NCBI RefSeq assembly: GCF_017309955.1
Contig: NZ_CP021247.1
Span: 1,761,001-1,825,000, forward strand
DNA from: Novosphingobium sp. KA1
GTDB taxonomy: Bacteria; Pseudomonadota; Alphaproteobacteria; Sphingomonadales; Sphingomonadaceae
DNA length: 64,000 bases
Reading direction: 5' to 3'
Part shown: piece after piece, positions 11,747 to 19,965 of the stretch
How positions within the stretch are numbered: the first letter of the stretch is position 1
Layout of the letters: every line of letters starts with the position of its first letter
Program-made: the position numbers and the translations under genes
The notes under the pieces: model-generated
Told to the model about the DNA's origin: nothing
Databases searched by the model: none
Seen by the model: the letters and a program-made list of their open reading frames with translations, nothing else

Positions 11747-13141
11747 TTGGCCGATATGCCCGATCCCGTCCCGACTTTCGCCGATCCCGCGAAAGCTCCC
11801 TACGCCGTCAGCGAGGAAGAACGCGCCGCCATCGCCGCGGCCATCGACAGCGACGAACTGGTCGAACTGGCGCTGACGCTGGGCAACATCCCCAGCCGCT
11901 CGCGCGAGGAACTGGCGGCGGCGGAGTTCGTCCACGACTGGATGGACAAGGAAGGCTTCAAGCCGCGCAAGGTCGGCGCCACGCCCGAGCGGCCCAACGT
12001 GATCGGCGAATATGGCGGGACCGGACGCGGTGCGAACCTGCTGTTCACCGCGCATCTCGACACCGAAAGCCCCAGTGGCATGCGCGAGCATGACAGGTTC
12101 CGTTATCGCGAGTCCACGCTGGCCGATCCCGAATGGACCCAGTGCTGGCTGGACGAGGAAGGCCGCCTGCGCGGCTATCCGATCAGCAACGATCGCGGGC
12201 CGATGTCGTGCTTCCTGATCGCCGCCAAGGCGCTGCGCAAGGCGGGCATCGGGCTTTCCGGCAAGTGCTGGCTCACCGCCTGCCCCGGCGAGATCGGCCC
12301 CGAACCGATCGAGGAATTTTCCGGCATCGGCTGGAACGGCAAGGACATCGGCGCGCATTACCTGTTCCACCACGGCGGCGTCGCGCCCGATTACGCGATC
12401 GCGGCCGAGGGCACCGACTTCGGCCTGACCTGGCAGGGCTGCGGTTATGCGCTCTACCGGGTGCGGATCTTCGGGCAGGGGGTGTTCTCGCCCATTCTCG
12501 ATGCTCCCGCCGATCCGCTGCGTCACCCCAATCCGATCTACCGGCTCGGCGCGGTGATCGACGCGCTCCACGCCTGGGGGCAGAAGTTCGAGCGCGATTC
12601 GGTCATGGAGACCGCCAGCGGCGCGATCCATCCCAAGGTCCAGATCGCCTCGGTGCGCGGCGGCATGCCGATCGATTTCGGCGCGGGGACCGAAGTCTGC
12701 GCGCTCTACATCGACGTCTCGCTGAACCCGCGCCAGAAGGCGGCGGACGCGTACCACGGCATCATGGAAGCCATGCGCGGGGTGGATGTGGAAGGCTTCG
12801 ACGTGGAGCCGGTGGTCGTGCGCCACGGTTTCGAGGCGCGGCCTTCCGAAGTCGCCCCGCTGGTCGGCGCGGTCGATGCCGCCACCCGGCTGGCGCGCGG
12901 CGCGGCGGTGGAGCCGGCGCACCCGGTCTATTCCAGCATGTGGCGCGATCACAACGTGTTCAACATGCACCGCGTGCCTGCCATCACCACCGGCATGCCG
13001 CGCTGGCGGCCGACGGGGGCCGACATGGCCTCCAGCGCGCTGGTCTACGCCCTGACGATGCTTGCCGTCTGCGGCCGGGGCGAGGCATCTGCCGAACAGG
13101 TGGGAACCAGTGTCTACGGCAACGAGACGCCTTTTGACTAG
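11747..13141 (+). CDS. M20-family metallo-amidohydrolase
   Basis: About 464 aa. Start is uncertain: TTG at 11747 has GGAG 7 nt upstream; ATG at 11690 would overlap the MFS gene by 35 bp; ATG at 11756 lacks a spaced ribosome site. M20 metal and catalytic residues are visible: His and Asp in LLFTAHLDTES, the bridging Asp in ISNDRGPMS, the Glu in CPGEIGPEP, and AAEGTDFGL. The family includes N-carbamoyl-amino-acid hydrolases, acetylornithine deacetylase and dipeptidases. With the RutA/RutB-like pair and the amidase fusion, an amide or ureido cleaving role is inferred. Its TAG stop is the first three bases of the palindromic element at 13139. Confidence 0.82.
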   Translation: MADMPDPVPTFADPAKAPYAVSEEERAAIAAAIDSDELVELALTLGNIPSRSREELAAAEFVHDWMDKEGFKPRKVGATPERPNVIGEYGGTGRGANLLFTAHLDTESPSGMREHDRFRYRESTLADPEWTQCWLDEEGRLRGYPISNDRGPMSCFLIAAKALRKAGIGLSGKCWLTACPGEIGPEPIEEFSGIGWNGKDIGAHYLFHHGGVAPDYAIAAEGTDFGLTWQGCGYALYRVRIFGQGVFSPILDAPADPLRHPNPIYRLGAVIDALHAWGQKFERDSVMETASGAIHPKVQIASVRGGMPIDFGAGTEVCALYIDVSLNPRQKAADAYHGIMEAMRGVDVEGFDVEPVVVRHGFEARPSEVAPLVGAVDAATRLARGAAVEPAHPVYSSMWRDHNVFNMHRVPAITTGMPRWRPTGADMASSALVYALTMLAVCGRGEASAEQVGTSVYGNETPFD

Positions 13142-13406
13142 GCTCAGGACCCATAAATCCTGCCTGCGAGGTTTGAATCAAAATGCCTCAGGGCGAGGAA
13201 GGAAGGCGTAGGAATATGTCCATATTTCAAGGCTTCCTGACGCTGCGCTGGGGCATTTTGATCAAATCCCTACGGGACACCGGAATGGCTTCCATTTCGA
13301 ACCAAAGCCGCTTTGGACGGGCAACCAGCCCGCCCGGCAGCCGCTTTGGCCCGATATGTTCGCCATTCCGGTGCCTCGCAGGCATGATTTATGGGTCCTG
13401 AGCCTA
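13139..13406 (+). repeat. Palindromic element 1, anchored at a stop codon
   Basis: 268 bp. Outer arms 13139-13171 and 13374-13406 are 33 nt each and complementary with one mismatch; the outer 20 nt (TAGGCTCAGGACCCATAAAT) pair perfectly. Inside is a core of about 100 bp (GGTTTGA, CAAAATG, GGAATATGTC, ATATTTCAAG, GCGCTGGG) shared with element 2. A further segment of about 105 bp, absent from element 2, is itself a hairpin with 12-nt arms (CACCGGAATGGC at 13278-13289, its complement at 13362-13373). The first three bases, TAG, are the stop codon of the M20 gene. It separates that gene from the AraC-amidase gene. Confidence 0.85.
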
Positions 13407-13530
13407 AGATATACGACACCCTTGCCGAGTGGCCGGAGGCTCGATAGACCTCCCGCCCATAAGGTCGCCAACTATCGAACTGGACGCCCATCAGGGAAGG
13501 GTGCCACCGATCTGTCAGGGTGGTTCTCGC

Positions 13531-15873
13531 TTGCGCATAACGACGAATGTCTACCCCAAGGAGCAACGCCGCGACGCCTGGCGCTTCGCGCTCAAGCGCC
13601 TGTCGCTCACGCTCGACGAGGCGGATGAGGCGACGCTCTATGGCGAGCTGATCCATTTCCGCTCCAGCACCCATATCGACTTCATCCGCGTCACCGGCAC
13701 TGCCCAGTCGTGGACCATCGACTTCCGCGACCAGCCGACCACCTACTGGGTGGCGATGATCCTCGACGGCAGCGCCACGATGCGTGATTCCGAGCAGGAA
13801 CTGCGCCTTGCGGACGGCGACATGATCTGCGGGCGCGGCGATTCCCCGGTCCACCTCGCCTTCGCGGGCGACAACCGCAGCCTGATCGTGCAGGTGCCGC
13901 ACAGCGAACTGAGCCAGCGGTTGAAGACCCCGATCAGCGGCGCCCCGCGCAAGATCGCCACCGATACCGGCACCGCGCGTATTTTCGCGGGCATGTTGCG
14001 CTCGCTGGCCGACACGATCACCGACATCACCACCGACCAGGCCCGCCCGGTCGAACTGGCCTTCCCCGAATTCCTCGTCACCAGCCTGCTCGACAATGCC
14101 CCCGCCAAGGCCCTCGGCGGGGCGGCGGGCATGCGCGCGGCGCTGCTGGAGCGCATCTTCCAGACCATCGAGATCCGCCTGTCCGACCCCGACCTCAATT
14201 ACCAGCAGGTCGCCGCCGAGCACGGCATCTCGCCCCGCTATCTCCAGAAGCTGTTCGAATCGATCGACGACAGCTTCGGCCACTATGTGAAAGTGCGCCG
14301 CCTCGAACGCTGCCGGCTCGACCTGCGCAGCCCGCTCCACGTGCAGAAGTCGATTTCCGACATCCTGTTCGAATGGGGCTTCAACGACAGCGCCTCGTTC
14401 AGCCGCGCCTTCCGCGAGCAGTACGGCATTTCTCCGCGCGAATACCGCAAGGCGCCGCCGCAGGAGCAGGCGGCGGTCGAACTGCTGCGCCGGGGGCGCC
14501 CCGCCCGCAAGGAGCGCGCCAGGGCCGAAGAGGCGGCCGAGGTCGAGGAAGTGCTCGACGAGCAGCTGGACGAGCAGGCGGCCGACGATGCGCCGCAAGT
14601 GCCCGCCTACATGGGCGATACCGGCACCTCGCGCCATCACCACCTGCCCGCCACGCCCGAGACGATCCACTGGGGCTATCTCAGCAAGGACCTGAAACCG
14701 GCGCTGCGCGTGCGTTCGGGCGATTTCGTGACGATCGAGGCGCTGACCCACCACGCCAACGACGATCCCGAGCGCATGGTCGAAGGCGATGCCGGGGTGG
14801 AGAGCGTCTACCACTGGGACCACGGCGGCAAGACGGTCGAGCGGCGCGGCGCCGGGCCGATGGACGCCAGCGCCTTCGGGCGCGGGCCGGGCGAGGGGTT
14901 CGGCGTGCACATCTGCACCGGGCCGATCCACATCGAAGGCGCCATGCCGGGCGACCTCGTCGAAGTGCGTATCCTCGACCTCAAGCCCCGCCCCAGCGGC
15001 AACCCCCGTTTTGCCGGCAAGAGCTTCGGTTCCAACGCGGCGACCTACTGGGGCTTCCACTACAACGACCTGCTGACCGAGCCGAAGAACCGCGAGGTCG
15101 TGACGATCTACGAGGTCGAAGCGGCGGGCGGGCGGTTGCCCAAGGCCCACGCGGTCTATTCCTACCGCTGGACGCCGCAGGTCGATCCCTCGGGCGTGAC
15201 CCACGCGCGTTACGACTATCCGGGCGTGCCGGTGAACCCGGAAAGCATCGAGCGCAATTACGACATCCTGCAGAACGTCGAGATCCCGATCCGCCCGCAC
15301 TTCGGGGTGATCGCGGTGGCGCCCAGCCATAACGGGCTGGTCGATTCGGTGCCGCCTGCCAGTTTCGGGGGCAATCTCGACAACTGGCGCACCGGCCCCG
15401 GCGCGCGGGTGTTCCTGCCGGTGCAGGTGCCCGGCGCGCTGCTCTCGCTGGGTGACCCCCATGCCTCGCAGGGCGACAGCGAGCTATGCGGCACCGCCAT
15501 CGAATGTTCGATGACCGGGCTGATCCAGATCGTTCACCACAAGGGGGCGGGCGTGATGGAGCAGTTGAAGGACGTCGATTACCCGCTGATCGAGACCGAG
15601 ACCGAGTGGGTGATCATGGGCTTCTCGCACCCCGATTACCTCAAGGAACTCGGGCCGGACGCGCAGAGCGAGGTCTACAAGCAAAGCTCGATCGACGGCG
15701 CCATGCGCGATGCCTTCCGCAAGGCGCGGCGGTTCCTGATGACCGCCAAGCAACTGACCGAGGACGAGGCGATCTCGCTGCTTTCGGTCGGGGTGGACTT
15801 CGGCGTATCGCAGATCGTCAACGGCAACTACGGTGTCCACGCGGTGATCCGCAAGGCGCTGTTCACCAGCTGA
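13531..15873 (+). CDS. AraC-type regulator fused to acetamidase/formamidase domain
   Basis: About 780 aa in one uninterrupted frame. The N-terminal 1-200 resembles the AraC_binding_2 (cupin-like) sensor; two HTH units follow (YQQVAAEHGISPRYLQKLFES, cut here to key residues, and the AraC signature ending FSRAFREQYGISPREYRK) near 230-310. An acidic/Ala-rich linker of about 70 residues leads to a full FmdA/AmdA domain (about 375-780) with HWGYLSKDLKPALRVRSGD, DPHASQGDSELCGTAIE and a normal C-terminus. Acetamidase/formamidase hydrolyses short amides to ammonia and acid. Start is uncertain: TTG at 13531 has AGGGTGG upstream; GTG at 13429 would add 34 poorly protein-like residues. A regulator that carries its own catabolic enzyme is unusual. 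Confidence 0.85.
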   Translation: MRITTNVYPKEQRRDAWRFALKRLSLTLDEADEATLYGELIHFRSSTHIDFIRVTGTAQSWTIDFRDQPTTYWVAMILDGSATMRDSEQELRLADGDMICGRGDSPVHLAFAGDNRSLIVQVPHSELSQRLKTPISGAPRKIATDTGTARIFAGMLRSLADTITDITTDQARPVELAFPEFLVTSLLDNAPAKALGGAAGMRAALLERIFQTIEIRLSDPDLNYQQVAAEHGISPRYLQKLFESIDDSFGHYVKVRRLERCRLDLRSPLHVQKSISDILFEWGFNDSASFSRAFREQYGISPREYRKAPPQEQAAVELLRRGRPARKERARAEEAAEVEEVLDEQLDEQAADDAPQVPAYMGDTGTSRHHHLPATPETIHWGYLSKDLKPALRVRSGDFVTIEALTHHANDDPERMVEGDAGVESVYHWDHGGKTVERRGAGPMDASAFGRGPGEGFGVHICTGPIHIEGAMPGDLVEVRILDLKPRPSGNPRFAGKSFGSNAATYWGFHYNDLLTEPKNREVVTIYEVEAAGGRLPKAHAVYSYRWTPQVDPSGVTHARYDYPGVPVNPESIERNYDILQNVEIPIRPHFGVIAVAPSHNGLVDSVPPASFGGNLDNWRTGPGARVFLPVQVPGALLSLGDPHASQGDSELCGTAIECSMTGLIQIVHHKGAGVMEQLKDVDYPLIETETEWVIMGFSHPDYLKELGPDAQSEVYKQSSIDGAMRDAFRKARRFLMTAKQLTEDEAISLLSVGVDFGVSQIVNGNYGVHAVIRKALFTS

Positions 15874-15920
15874 ACGGCGCCCGGCGAGGCAAAGGACGAT
15901 CGCGTCACCGGGCGGCGCGA

Positions 15921-16322
15921 TCAGTCGGCGTCGTCTTCCAGCGCGTGCATGGCCTCGTCCGAGAGGCCGAAGTGGTGGCCGACCTCGTGCACCACCACAT
16001 GGGTCACGAGGTCTTCCAGCGTCACGTCGGTCTCGCACCATTCGGCCAGCAGGGGCTGGCGGTAGAGGGTGATGCGCGGGCGGAATTCGCCCGAGGACCA
16101 GACCGATTCCTCGTCCATCGGACGCCCGTGGTAGAGCCCGGTCAGGCCCCAGGCATCGTCGATGCCCAGGGCCTGCAGGGTCTCCTCGTCGGCGAACTCC
16201 TCGACGTGGACGGTGATCCCGTCGAGGTGCTGCGCAAAGGGTTCGGGAATCCGCGCGAAGGCGGCATGGGCGAGGGCCTCGAACACGGCCGGGCCGGGGG
16301 CATTGCCGAAGCGCTGGATCAC
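15921..16322 (-). CDS. Zincin-like metallopeptidase (DUF1025-type)
   Basis: 133 aa from a GTG start at 16322, selected because AGGAG (the end of the upstream gene) lies 7 nt before it; an ATG at 16343 would overlap the upstream gene by 17 bp. Family hallmarks: FGNAPGPAVFEALAH, LTGLYHGRP, RPRITLYRQPLL and the metal-binding helix HVVVHEVGHHFGLSDEAM with an HExxH motif and a downstream Asp. These small cytoplasmic proteins are called metallopeptidase family proteins; substrates are unknown. It is separated by only 4 bp from the M1 peptidase gene and is probably co-transcribed with it. Confidence 0.85.
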   Translation of the reverse strand: MIQRFGNAPGPAVFEALAHAAFARIPEPFAQHLDGITVHVEEFADEETLQALGIDDAWGLTGLYHGRPMDEESVWSSGEFRPRITLYRQPLLAEWCETDVTLEDLVTHVVVHEVGHHFGLSDEAMHALEDDAD

Positions 16323-16326
16323 GCGG

Positions 16327-18216
16327 TCACTCCTGCCCGGCAACGATCCGCTCGATCCCGGCGGCGGTCGAGGGGTGGTAGGTGGGCTTTGCCTCGGCGA
16401 AGAAGTCCCGCGCCTTGGGCTGGCCCCAGTCGCCTTGCTTCATCAGCCCGCGATAGAGCGGATAGACCAGCAGCCCGCGGCCGATGCGCGAGAGATAGCC
16501 GCGCAGGTACGGCACTGCCGGATCGTAGTGGTTGGCGATGGCCAGCTCGAACCAGGCCGACTGGATATAGGCATTGCCCGAAGCCGAGAGCCCCAGCGTC
16601 TCGTCCAGTTCCTTCAGGCGGGCGGGCGTCTGCCGGCGGTCGATGCCGTTGAGGAAACGCAGCCATTCCTGCGTGGTCCAGCCGGTCGGCTGCACGGCGC
16701 TGGCGGGGCCGCCGGCGTTGAAGGCGGCGAGCCTGGTATCGACCTTGGCCAGCGTCGCGCTGTGGACGCGCACGGCGTTGTCCGGCAGCCCCGCGCCGTA
16801 GGCCCAGCGGTCGAGCTGGAGCTTGAGTTCGAGTTCCGGCTGGCCCTTGAGCAGCCGTTCGCGCAAGTCGGCCAGGAAACCGGCGGTGGTCTGCGGCTGG
16901 AAGGCGTGACGGTCGAAGTAGGAGGTGAGATAGGCATCCCACTTGTCGCGGCCGACGGTATATTCGATCATGCGCAGGAAGTTGGACCCCTTGGTGTAGT
17001 CCACCTCACCCGCGCCCGGCTCGCCGTTGAGGCGCGTCGCGGCGCCGGTCTGGCCGCCGGCCGCGGCGATCTCGCGGCGCATCACATCCCAGTCGAGATC
17101 GGCATAGGTCGCGGCCTGCTCCTTGCCGTAGAGCGATTCCATGATGCGGTTCTCGAAGTAGGTGGTGAAACCCTCGTTCAGCCACGAATCCGACCAGGTG
17201 GCATTGGTGACGAGGTTGCCCGACCACGAATGCGCCAGTTCATGCGCGACGACATCGGTGTTCGAGCGGTCGCCCGTGACGATGGTCGGCGTCAGGAAGG
17301 TCAGCATCGGGTTTTCCATGCCGCCGTAAGGGAAGGCGGGCGGCAGCACGAGCATGTCGTAGCGGCCCCAGCGATAGGGGCCGTAGAGCTTGCTGGCGGC
17401 GTCGATCATCTTTTCGACATCGACGAATTCCCTCGCCGCCTTGTCCAGCATCGGTGCCTCGGTCCAGACGCCCGAGCGCGGGCCGAGCGGCTTGAACTTG
17501 AGGTCGCCCACCGCAAACGCGATCAGGTAGGGCGGGACCGGCTTGTCCATGCGGAAGCGGAAGCTCCGGCGGCCGTCGGGCAGGGTCTCACCCTTGTCGC
17601 CCGAAAGCTTCTCGGCGCTCATCACCGCGACCATGTCGCCCGGCACGCGCAGGGTGGCTTCCCAGGTCTGGCGGATGCCGGGGCTGTCCTGCGTGGGCAC
17701 CCACGAACGGTTGAGGATCGCCTGCCCCTGGCTGAACAGGAAGGGCTTCTTCTTGCCGAAGGTCATTTCCGGCGGCAGCCACTGCAGCGCGGTGGCGCCG
17801 GGCTTCGAGCGGTAGGTGATCGTGATCCGGGTCGCGCCCGCAAGCGTGACGGTGAGCGCCGAGCCGATGTCGGCGTTGGCGCTATCCTTGGCGCCGACCG
17901 TCCACTTCAGCGCCTTGCCCGAAGCATCGGTGACGGCCGAGATGTCCATGTCGTTGACGTCGAGCACCACCTGCGTGGCCCCCGGGGCTGCGAGAATGTC
18001 CAGCACCGCAGAGCCGGACAGCGTCTTGCTGGCGAAATCGACGTCGAGGTCGAGCGCCACGTGGGTGACGCGGGCGACTTGCGGCTCGGCGTGGGTCCAG
18101 ACGTCCCGGGCATCGGGCGTGGTCAGGATCGGTGCGGGAATGGTCTGCGCCGTGGCAAGCGAGAGGGTGAGCGAAGCGGAGCCGGCAAGCAGCGCGGCGG
18201 CAAGGATAATGCGCAT
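16327..18216 (-). CDS. M1-family aminopeptidase, leukotriene-A4-hydrolase-like, secreted
   Basis: 629 aa with an N-terminal signal peptide (MRIILAAALLAGSASLTLSL..). Zinc site HELAH at about 325-329 with the third ligand Glu in LNEGFTTYFENRI, 18 residues on; the peptide-binding GGMEN motif is present (PYGGMENPMLTF). A C-terminal alpha-helical domain of the leukotriene A4 hydrolase type (DETLGLSASGNAYIQSAWFELAIANHYDPAVPYLRGYLSRIGR, here shortened in meaning to an armadillo-like helical repeat) completes the usual length. Likely periplasmic aminopeptidase for peptide utilisation. First gene of a two-gene minus-strand operon with the small metallopeptidase gene. Confidence 0.92.
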   Translation of the reverse strand: MRIILAAALLAGSASLTLSLATAQTIPAPILTTPDARDVWTHAEPQVARVTHVALDLDVDFASKTLSGSAVLDILAAPGATQVVLDVNDMDISAVTDASGKALKWTVGAKDSANADIGSALTVTLAGATRITITYRSKPGATALQWLPPEMTFGKKKPFLFSQGQAILNRSWVPTQDSPGIRQTWEATLRVPGDMVAVMSAEKLSGDKGETLPDGRRSFRFRMDKPVPPYLIAFAVGDLKFKPLGPRSGVWTEAPMLDKAAREFVDVEKMIDAASKLYGPYRWGRYDMLVLPPAFPYGGMENPMLTFLTPTIVTGDRSNTDVVAHELAHSWSGNLVTNATWSDSWLNEGFTTYFENRIMESLYGKEQAATYADLDWDVMRREIAAAGGQTGAATRLNGEPGAGEVDYTKGSNFLRMIEYTVGRDKWDAYLTSYFDRHAFQPQTTAGFLADLRERLLKGQPELELKLQLDRWAYGAGLPDNAVRVHSATLAKVDTRLAAFNAGGPASAVQPTGWTTQEWLRFLNGIDRRQTPARLKELDETLGLSASGNAYIQSAWFELAIANHYDPAVPYLRGYLSRIGRGLLVYPLYRGLMKQGDWGQPKARDFFAEAKPTYHPSTAAGIERIVAGQE

Positions 18217-18298
18217 GGGCGCGGTTTATGGCCGCGCCCGTGCCGCCATGCAAGTTGGCATGCGGGCTGGCATATCGGCTGGCATGAGGGGGGCGGAC

Positions 18299-18456
18299 TA
18301 GGTCGTAAACGCATAAACGGCACCATCGAGGCGCTCAAATGGCCCAGCGCTGCGTCGGGAAGTCTTGAAATATCGACATATTCCAGCGCCTTCCCTCCTG
18401 CCGCCGAGCCATTTTGCCTCAAACCTCGATGGTGCCGTTTATGCGTTTACGACCTA
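18299..18456 (-). repeat. Palindromic element 2, anchored at a stop codon
   Basis: 158 bp. Arms 18299-18331 and 18424-18456 are 33 nt and perfectly complementary. Read on the minus strand, it starts with TAGG and holds CGAGG, GGTTTGA, CAAAATG, GGAATATGTC and ATATTTCAAG at the same places as element 1. The arms differ from those of element 1 at about 14 of 33 positions, and each change is matched on the opposite arm. The initial TAG is the stop codon of the TPR gene, so the orientation relative to the upstream gene is the same as in element 1. It lies between that gene and the M1 peptidase gene. Confidence 0.85.
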
Positions 18457-19965
18457 AAGCGTGGCGGGGAGCACGTCGAACTTGCGCGTGCCGCCGGCGC
18501 GCGCGATCGCCGCCTGCACGTCCGCGCGGGCGCGCAGGGCGGTGAGGCCGGGGTCGAACAGGCCGGGGGGAACGCCCGTGGGAAGCGGGCGATACTCGCT
18601 CAGCTGGCCGAGGGCATCGACCTGCCGGTCGGGATCGCCGAGCCGGGCGATCATCGAGGCGGCGGCATCGTCGAACCGGCCCATGCACATCTGCATGTCG
18701 GTAAGCGCCTCGGGGTGATCCTCGGGGTGGGCCTGGGCATAGGCGAGGTCGGTGGCTGCCAGATCGTCGAGCGCCAGCGCCTGCGCGGCGCAGGCATGGG
18801 CGAGGCGCATTTCCATCACCCCGTAAGGACTGGCGCCTGCCCCTGCCTGCTGCGCGAAGGGGGCAAGCAGCGCCAGCGCCTCCCGGGGATGGCCGAAGCG
18901 GACGTGGAGGTAGGCCAGGTTGATCGTCTGGCTGACATTGGGACGGCCTTTCTCGCCGCCGGCGATGGCGGTGCGGTAGGCCTCCACCGCCTCGCCATAG
19001 CGACCGAGCTGCTCGTAGGTCCGCGCAAGCCCGTCCCACCACCAGTTGAGGCGTTCGTCCCGGTCGGAAAACTGCTTGGCAAGCACGCCGTCGGGCCGCG
19101 CCGCCTGCAATGTGGCGAGCGCCTTGTCGGCCTGGCCGAGCACGCGCTGCGTGGCGGCGAGGTCGATCGGCAGGGCAAGGCGGCCGGGGCGGGCGATGCT
19201 GCGCTGTTCGAGGTCGGCGGCCTGCCGCTCGTAGGCGGCGCGCAAGTCGAAGTCGGCGGGCAGGTAGCTGCGCAAGTGCGGATCGAGACTGGCTTGCCGC
19301 AGCAGGTCCGCCTCGCGGATCGCGGCGACTTGGGCCGCTGCGTTTTCCTTGTCGCCTTCCTTGGCGAGCAGCCGGGCCAGCGGCAGGCGCAGCCTGGAGA
19401 AGCCGGCATCGTTGATCGCGGGCGGGAATGCGGGGTCGGTGGCAAGCACCAGCAGGCGGCGATAGGCCGGATCGTCCTGTCGGGCGTCCAGCCGGTTGAC
19501 CAGCGCAAAGATCCAGTCGTCGGGAATCGAGCCGAAGGCGCTGGGGGCCTGCTTCTGGATCATTTCCAGCGTGGCGACGGCATCGCTGTCCCGCTTGCTG
19601 TCGAGTTCGACCGCATAGCGCAGCCGCCAGGCGATGTCGGCGGCGCCGGGCAGCGCGGTGAGCATGCGGGCATGGCCGAGCGCGGCGTCGAGCTTGTTCG
19701 CCTGGCCTTCGCAGATCGTCGCCGAGAGCAGGATCGGGCCTTGCAGCAAGGGTTCCAGCGTGCCGAAATCCTTGCGTGCGACCAGCGGCGAGATGATCTT
19801 GAGGACGCCGTTGCAGTCATTGCCGTTCATCGAGGATTGCAGGCGCGGCATCGCCTTGGCGGCGGCGCGGGAAATGTCCTGGCGGGCCTCGGCCTGGGCC
19901 GGGAGGCCCGCGGATGCGAGGGCGAGCGCAGCAGCGAGTGCCCGGCCGGGCTTGGCATTGATCAT
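18454..19965 (-). CDS. Exported tetratricopeptide-repeat protein of unknown function
   Basis: 503 aa. It starts with a signal peptide (MINAKPGRALAAALALASAGLPAQA) followed by helical repeats rich in Ala and Leu. TPR-like units are visible in the C-terminal half, for example LARTYEQLGRYGEAVEAYRTA and INLAYLHVRFGHPREALALL. No catalytic motif was recognised. TPR proteins act as protein-interaction scaffolds, and this one is expected in the periplasm. It appears to be a single gene whose TAG stop codon is the first three bases of palindromic element 2. It precedes the M1 peptidase operon on the same strand, but a functional link is only positional. Confidence 0.78.
   Translation of the reverse strand: MINAKPGRALAAALALASAGLPAQAEARQDISRAAAKAMPRLQSSMNGNDCNGVLKIISPLVARKDFGTLEPLLQGPILLSATICEGQANKLDAALGHARMLTALPGAADIAWRLRYAVELDSKRDSDAVATLEMIQKQAPSAFGSIPDDWIFALVNRLDARQDDPAYRRLLVLATDPAFPPAINDAGFSRLRLPLARLLAKEGDKENAAAQVAAIREADLLRQASLDPHLRSYLPADFDLRAAYERQAADLEQRSIARPGRLALPIDLAATQRVLGQADKALATLQAARPDGVLAKQFSDRDERLNWWWDGLARTYEQLGRYGEAVEAYRTAIAGGEKGRPNVSQTINLAYLHVRFGHPREALALLAPFAQQAGAGASPYGVMEMRLAHACAAQALALDDLAATDLAYAQAHPEDHPEALTDMQMCMGRFDDAAASMIARLGDPDRQVDALGQLSEYRPLPTGVPPGLFDPGLTALRARADVQAAIARAGGTRKFDVLPATL

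Follow-up and report, generated by a model that had tools for sequence, protein, structure and literature searches.

MITEs that insert at TA are already known from RUP, ERIC and NEMIS, and one of them carries the ends of a resident insertion sequence (IS), according to the parts of the literature drawn on here (PMC2229807, PMC10969869). RUP of Streptococcus pneumoniae is a MITE with ends that match a resident IS and with insertion at TA, but it is 107 bp long and has an IS630-type partner, and the sections consulted of its description mention neither covariation over the whole length nor an excess at stop codons (PMC2229807). ERIC and Correia/NEMIS are TA-flanked MITEs with long stem structures, and some ERICs located at 3′ ends affect mRNA decay (PMC2229807, PMC10969869); going by the excerpts of these descriptions, they are set apart from the elements reported here by their hosts and their sizes (127 bp, and about 107/155 bp, respectively). 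CIR, found in the alphaproteobacteria Caulobacter and Brucella, is a repeat that has two hairpin arms and carries TA at its ends (PMC2229807). In the part of its description used here CIR has a conserved GANTC in a loop, whereas any GANTC at all was found in 13 of 50 elements of the present family, including E1, and in the present elements the hairpins lie within a 33-bp outer stem. GTAG REPs share with these elements that their ends often give the flanking ORF its TAG stop (PMC3733652), but they are 20–40 bp long. As for autonomous elements, a survey in Paracoccus lists, in the portion available, IS427-group ISs of 832–865 bp, some with two overlapping ORFs, and 2-bp repeats in all of those listed but one (4 bp) (PMC3281130).

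The stretch of DNA analysed here (the window) comprises 64,000 nt of Novosphingobium sp. KA1, in which a sequence-only reading had pointed out two palindromes, E1 and E2, anchored at stop codons. With high confidence, they are regarded as non-autonomous MITEs of one sphingomonad family with IS5/IS427-type ends, whose ends would covary through matching to a transposase and whose excess at stop codons would arise by selection. The earlier statement that no described family fits holds for the family itself, which was not described among the matches listed in literature searches for sphingomonad MITE, but not for its kind, which is known (a MITE with IS5/IS427-type ends). What is unusual is the covariation over the whole length with interchangeable transposon ends across many genera, plus the strong stop-codon excess. 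It is thus a new family of MITEs, unusual in these two respects, and no new class.

Structure of E1 and E2 and distribution of the family

E1 (13139–13406, + strand) is a full-length element of 268 nt with arms of class A, inserted into the stop codon (TAA) of the gene upstream. This length includes one TA of the target-site duplication at each end (left copy 13139–13140, which pairs with the right copy at 13405–13406), as deduced from empty-site comparison. The left arm (13139–13171, +), whose outer 16 nt coincide exactly with one of the ends of an IS5-type insertion sequence resident in the genome, and the right arm (13374–13406, +) are 33 nt long and 97% complementary, with one mismatch. 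According to the consensus structure of 50 elements, they enclose internal hairpin A (13172–13266, +), a small junction hairpin (TCCC..GGGA, 13267–13277, +) and internal hairpin B (13278–13373, +), and the usual 268-nt element follows this same arrangement inside a 33-bp outer stem. E1 opens with the TAG of an upstream + strand gene (11756–13141); the start of this gene is a home-made call, its 3′ end can be aligned with relatives that have TAA as their stop, and it gave no Pfam match at E 0.001.

E2 (18299–18456, − strand) is an internally deleted element of 158 nt with arms of class B, located in the TAG stop codon of a TPR-repeat gene (18454–19965, −). The gene-proximal arm (18424–18456, −) begins with the TAG stop of that gene (19965–18454) and is 100% complementary over 33 nt to the distal arm (18299–18331, −). 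Its interior (18332–18423, −) is hairpin A alone, shared with E1, without the second internal hairpin found in 268-nt copies. The core announced as common to E1 and E2 becomes evident in the minus-strand reading of E2, whose interior then aligns to the first internal hairpin of E1. On the + strand of the window the two elements have opposite orientations; relative to the gene they are oriented alike, as had been noted, the gene of E2 being on the minus strand. The palindromic 33-nt arms, with one and no mismatch, and the initial TAG acting as the stop codon of the upstream gene were found as described for both elements, so the observation of two palindromes is confirmed, and it was even understated. 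RNA folding compared with shuffled sequences gave z values of −14.5 for E1 and −12.6 for E2, with none of 200 shuffles as good in either case.

The surroundings of both elements were scanned for intrinsic terminators. Around E1, two weak minus-strand sites were detected, one inside the element (13198–13186) and one just beyond it (13427–13414), with 0.4 expected, and the scan around E2 gave no site. A general terminator role of the element thus finds no support in the scan of these surroundings. As a side observation, one long ORF (13531–15873, +) combines an acetamidase/formamidase domain with an AraC-type regulator (AraC_binding_2, HTH_18); it could be an unusual but real fusion, or two genes read as one.

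A whole-genome search, as proposed in the sequence-only reading, in which at most 40 candidates were scored, showed no fewer than 30 copies with both arms in the genome of the window (G000), plus some partial ones. Relatives were found in at least 42 of 397 sampled genomes of the family Sphingomonadaceae, from at least 21 of 96 genera (E 1e-6); only two candidates per genome were scored, so these figures are lower bounds and carry no copy numbers. From this search, 60 of the 62 places outside the own genome were retrieved as loci. The element measured 265–271 nt in 53 of these 60 loci and had terminal inverted repeats with 0–4 arm mismatches in 50. Five loci without convincing arms (L138, L140, L143, L145, L147) were left out of later counts, as was the single-arm match L057 of genome G045, while a few distant elements whose ends were placed about one base off by the script (e.g., L097, L113, L129) were retained.

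Within G000, class A arms (TAGGCTCAGGACCCAT..) are present on two copies, E1 and C1:330338, and the other copies carry class B arms (TAGGYCGTAAAC.CATAAA.. or a variant of it), their cores being 81–86% identical to that of E1. Length variants were also observed: copy L002 is short in G000 (158 nt) but of the usual length (268 nt) at the equivalent place in the same-species genome G454, and four loci (L017, L050, L053, L055) are 289–290 nt long, with 21–22 extra nt within the element. At L040, two copies that match E1/E2 equally well (G000:C1:3456589 and 3457178) start 589 bp apart, the first without most of its right arm; this pair is possibly a local duplication. At L035 (G000:C2:1232834–1234276), the two pieces of a family copy are separated by about 1.2 kb, in which a DDE transposase match (L072) is located, so the family elements are probably insertion targets themselves. 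Finally, seven contigs of the draft genome G027 (C1, C3, C5, C13, C23, C24, C35) start or end no more than about 170 bases from a class B arm. The palindromes seem to break draft assemblies, so that the copies of G027 would be under-counted.

Mobility and relation to IS5/IS427 insertion sequences

The 3′ ends of orthologous genes with and without the element were compared, as the earlier reading had advised, and the native stop turned out to be TAA at E1 and TAG at E2. Clean empty sites of E1 exist in the same-species genome G454 and in two relatives, G464 and G006. In all three the gene terminates in GAC TAA G, while the filled site reads GAC TAG..CTA AG; the TA is duplicated and the native TAA is converted to TAG. 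E1 is also absent in G473, with a poorer alignment and TAG as the stop. E2 is absent in G464 (gene ending CTT TAG TCC) and present in G454. The empty sites of both elements therefore support a 2-bp TA duplication, as in the IS5/IS427 group. The empty sites of three C2 copies were sought on plasmids, with no clean pair found. When the 15 best-scoring loci of each genome were compared with G000, both flanks were common to a G000 copy at 11 of 15 loci in G454 and at 0 of 15 in G464, where one locus (L182) had a single flank in common. Site turnover is fast.

The target followed YTAR in 46 of the 47 elements of the first set and was less uniform in further loci (38 of 55), a lower share partly due to the ends being placed by script. 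Overall, YTAR was found at 73% of the non-stop sites and 94% of the stop sites. The family is thus a MITE, with no transposase, many copies, TA duplication and polymorphism among strains.

G000 contains two identical resident ISs of 840 bp (L065/L066), detected in the case of L065 with DDE_Tnp_1, whose ends are TAGGCTCAGGACCCAT and TAGGCTCAGGACTC. E1 shares its 16 outer bases with the first of these ends (16/16) and 12 with the other, and also matches L218 and L222 in 16 of 16 outer bases, whereas E2 matches L085 in 18 of 19. End-to-end comparison with 14 ISs separated the two classes: E1 matched (E up to 1) all nine class A ISs and none of the five of class B, and E2 matched four of the five class B ISs (not L237) and none of the nine of class A. 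The ISs with class B ends are from Sphingobium (L085) and from the genus of the window (L235, L237–L239) and measure 851–852 bp; a pattern search of G000 gave none. The arms were also compared by eye with resident ISs, over 30 IS loci in 22 genomes. In G372, the arm of the element is unlike the ends of its ISs, so the matching of arms to resident ISs is not general.

Most ISs found here measure about 825–855 bp. The transposase ORFs of L080, L083, L085 and L087 match DUF4096 and/or DDE_Tnp_1, and those of L083, L085 and L087 also match the NCBIfam IS5 model NF033580. Short-query searches located the outer 18–24 nt of both arm classes on alphaproteobacterial plasmids, and the places opened there included ends of IS5-family ISs (L080, L082, L083, L085, L087), together with places without an annotated transposase (L079, L081). 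Plasmid BLAST matches to query bases 13–33 alone, chiefly in Escherichia and Klebsiella, were taken as chance. At L081 (a Pseudosulfitobacter plasmid, 2501–2852), a different 352-bp stretch without annotated transposase is bordered by class A-type ends (TAGGGTCAGGACCCATTAAT on both sides), perhaps another MITE with such ends outside the sphingomonads.

The size of the ISs, their two ORFs and the 2-bp repeats agree with the IS427 group as far as it is covered by the source used (PMC3281130), and the family is therefore called a MITE with IS5/IS427-type ends. The elements resemble this group of the IS5 family in the outer 16–20 nt of the arms, the TA duplication and the YTAR target, and differ from it in having no transposase and in their core: apart from short chance pieces, no similarity was detected between this core and the 14 ISs, and an interior derived by deletion from a parent IS was not found among them. 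Such a derivation is not shown by every MITE and is not strictly defining. On this view, the 33-nt arms would be terminal inverted repeats such as IS5/IS427-type transposases recognise; these enzymes insert at YTAR, with duplication of TA. Judging from the sequences, the elements are probably mobilised in trans by the transposase of another transposon, an IS, and the copies amplified would be those whose ends match an active IS.

Insertion at stop codons

The position relative to genes was evaluated by replacing each element by TA, calling genes with a codon-usage model and asking whether this TA belonged to a stop codon; the calls are home-made, without curated annotation, and the stop counts depend on them. 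In G000, 17 of 29 elements were at stops, 10 were intergenic and 2 coding, which becomes 18 of 30 with E2, entered as a stop site from its empty-site comparison. Background non-coding YTAR sites in the same stretches were 18 stop to 197 other (Fisher test on non-coding sites, p 7e-11). In other genera, 25 of 55 were at stops, 24 intergenic and 6 coding, with a background of 11 to 67 (p 1e-5); the ratio of stop to other sites was 13 to 1 between convergent genes (background 7 to 15) and 12 to 12 between co-directional genes (background 4 to 22). In an additional set, from other genomes, 7 of 17 elements were at stops. Taking all sets, 50 of 101 usable sites lay on a native stop, against 29 of 249 background non-coding YTAR sites (about 12%). 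The location at stop codons anticipated from E1 and E2 therefore does not extend to all copies, half of which lie elsewhere, but it stands as a strong enrichment. Among singly anchored copies, the end touching the stop was the left one in 27 and the right one in 12 (p 0.02).

An in-frame YTAR with its TA at codon positions 1–2 can only be a stop codon, so the YTAR-anchored copies (94% of the 50) lie on native stops. Insertion there restores an in-frame TAG, which leaves the gene intact and makes the insertion harmless. Harmlessness does not explain the excess over other harmless sites.

The excess could be an insertion bias during transposition, with no part for selection, which we consider possible although clearly the less probable cause. 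The fast turnover of sites speaks for it, as does E1, a recent insertion at a stop, although this single case does not suffice for a judgement on new insertions. On the other hand, no extended target motif separating stop sites from other YTAR sites was found, so a longer target motif as the cause of the preference is not supported. Moreover, the autonomous ISs compared, which are only putative mobilisers, were at YTAR in 25 of 25 cases and at stops in only 2 (with 550-nt flanks) or 3 (with 1000-nt flanks), compared with 50 of 101 elements; for those with class A or B ends, the figure was 1 or 2 of 19. The autonomous ISs are thus found at stops like the background, and selection after insertion is therefore favoured. 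It is our best guess and most likely the origin of the excess; a hairpin at the 3′ end is perhaps useful, or its imprecise loss there costly. As the excess is absent from the autonomous ISs compared, the selection of mobile palindromes as 3′-end parts becomes testable.

Covariation of arms and internal stems

For the analysis of covariation, 91 elements (265–271 nt, with no more than 8 arm mismatches) were reduced to 64 by dropping those more than 95% identical, and the 50 of exactly 268 nt were compared without gaps. The two arms agreed at 95.3% of positions, whereas 2000 permutations of the right arms gave 66.5% on average and 71.8% at most; the mismatch filter favours pairing, although almost every retrieved locus passed it. 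The compensatory change between arms had been proposed from two copies, a thin basis, and it holds across these 50 non-redundant elements, so further copies lacking it, which would have spoken against the proposal, were not what was found. In the 24 class B copies of 268 nt in G000, the arms agreed at 96.7% of positions, compared with 92.9% after permutation.

When the arm changes were mapped on a core tree, 242 were paired on the same branch and 110 affected one arm only. These figures are counts from simple parsimony on a fast tree and not tests with a phylogenetic null, and a whole-arm switch adds several positions to them (as many as 12 on one branch). Paired and single changes were 193 to 27 at positions 5–21 and 46 to 66 at positions 22–29, a drop inward of the outer 21 nt that is compatible with ends being recognised by a transposase. 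The arms may covary because both ends must suit the same transposase. The internal stems also covary, which end-matching alone does not explain: their 75 pairs were Watson–Crick in 91.5% of cases, compared with 75.9% when permuted and at most 35% when slid, and the 25 most variable ones were paired in 86%, compared with 51% when permuted.

Double changes may arise over the long term by hairpin-templated (template-switch) repair, which would also account for the pairing of the internal stems. That such repair maintains the palindrome mainly by mutation, with no selection on the ends, is rather doubtful. Template switching is a described source of compensatory changes, according to the part of the source used (PMC8794818), and the mismatches without strand preference for G.U, the covariation of the interior as well as the arms, and the several paired changes on many branches would all agree with it. 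However, in the 10 orthologous copies of G000 and G454 that the script could align, all 8 arm differences were on one arm only and none was paired, conserved mispairs and internal loops persist (e.g., pairs 50–113 and 74–89), and the sharp fall of paired to single changes inside the outer 21 nt is not predicted by a process blind to position. The arm homogenisation suggested in the sequence-only reading is therefore possible over long times, while a rapid one was not seen in these 10 pairs.

A further reading, which we hold unlikely, would make the element a mobile 3′-end cassette that brings its own in-frame stop and, next to it, a cruciform or hairpin, its four-way structure being selected across Sphingomonadaceae. 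Stops would be favoured for improving or insulating the 3′ ends of genes, often convergent ones, and the ends would track the active IS5-type transposase.

Selection on RNA, as a structured 3′-UTR module or a small RNA with mobility as incidental, is quite improbable as the reason for the stem pairing, in spite of the strong covariation of arms and core and of the junction and loop sequences conserved among elements of many genera. Half of the copies start at a stop codon, so transcription is probable, and the stop is touched more often by the left end (27 to 12), which likewise speaks for an RNA. A selected RNA would tolerate G.U above A.C. On the E1-sense strand, leaving out two mostly wobble pairs (50–113, 74–89), the pair-breaking events from Watson–Crick were 64 to G.U, 92 to A.C and 104 to other mismatches, which runs opposite to the expectation for a gene-sense RNA; in the arms of the 64 elements, G.T and A.C were 31 and 44. 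The A.C excess is weak (p 0.03) and, if anything, favours the opposite strand, from which an RNA would fit. With the two wobble pairs included, the core cells were 124 G.T and 83 A.C; these two pairs account for 78 of the 124 and point toward a gene-sense RNA. The turnover of sites among close relatives also speaks against selection on RNA. The Rfam search of window positions 12000–19500 gave one sub-threshold match, outside E1 and E2, and four further loci (L049, L075, L141, L135) gave none at the gathering score; with no relevant Rfam match and no gene-sense G.U excess, an RNA gene was discarded. The selected RNA structure offered by the first reading is thus not borne out for the gene-sense strand, and the covariation reads as a DNA-level property (matching of transposon ends, perhaps with hairpin-templated repair). 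Covariation is commonly taken as proof of RNA structure. A mobile DNA with hundreds of paired changes and no G.U preference is a warning for RNA discovery based on it.

A fully open reading frame was present in 24 of 50 elements (18 of them in one minus-strand frame), compared with 339 of 2000 pair-preserving shuffles. A coding element, as in the Rickettsia palindromes, was rejected despite these open frames, the variability having no 3-base codon periodicity.

To our knowledge, GTAG REPs do not have TA-duplicating ends of DDE type. That the elements are of REP/BIME type and mobilised by a RAYT tyrosine transposase is hardly conceivable, for although they are palindromic, intergenic and supply stops through a terminal TAG as GTAG REPs do in the section cited (PMC3733652), they mostly measure 268 bp instead of 20–40 bp, duplicate TA and have symmetrical ends that match ISs with DDE transposases.
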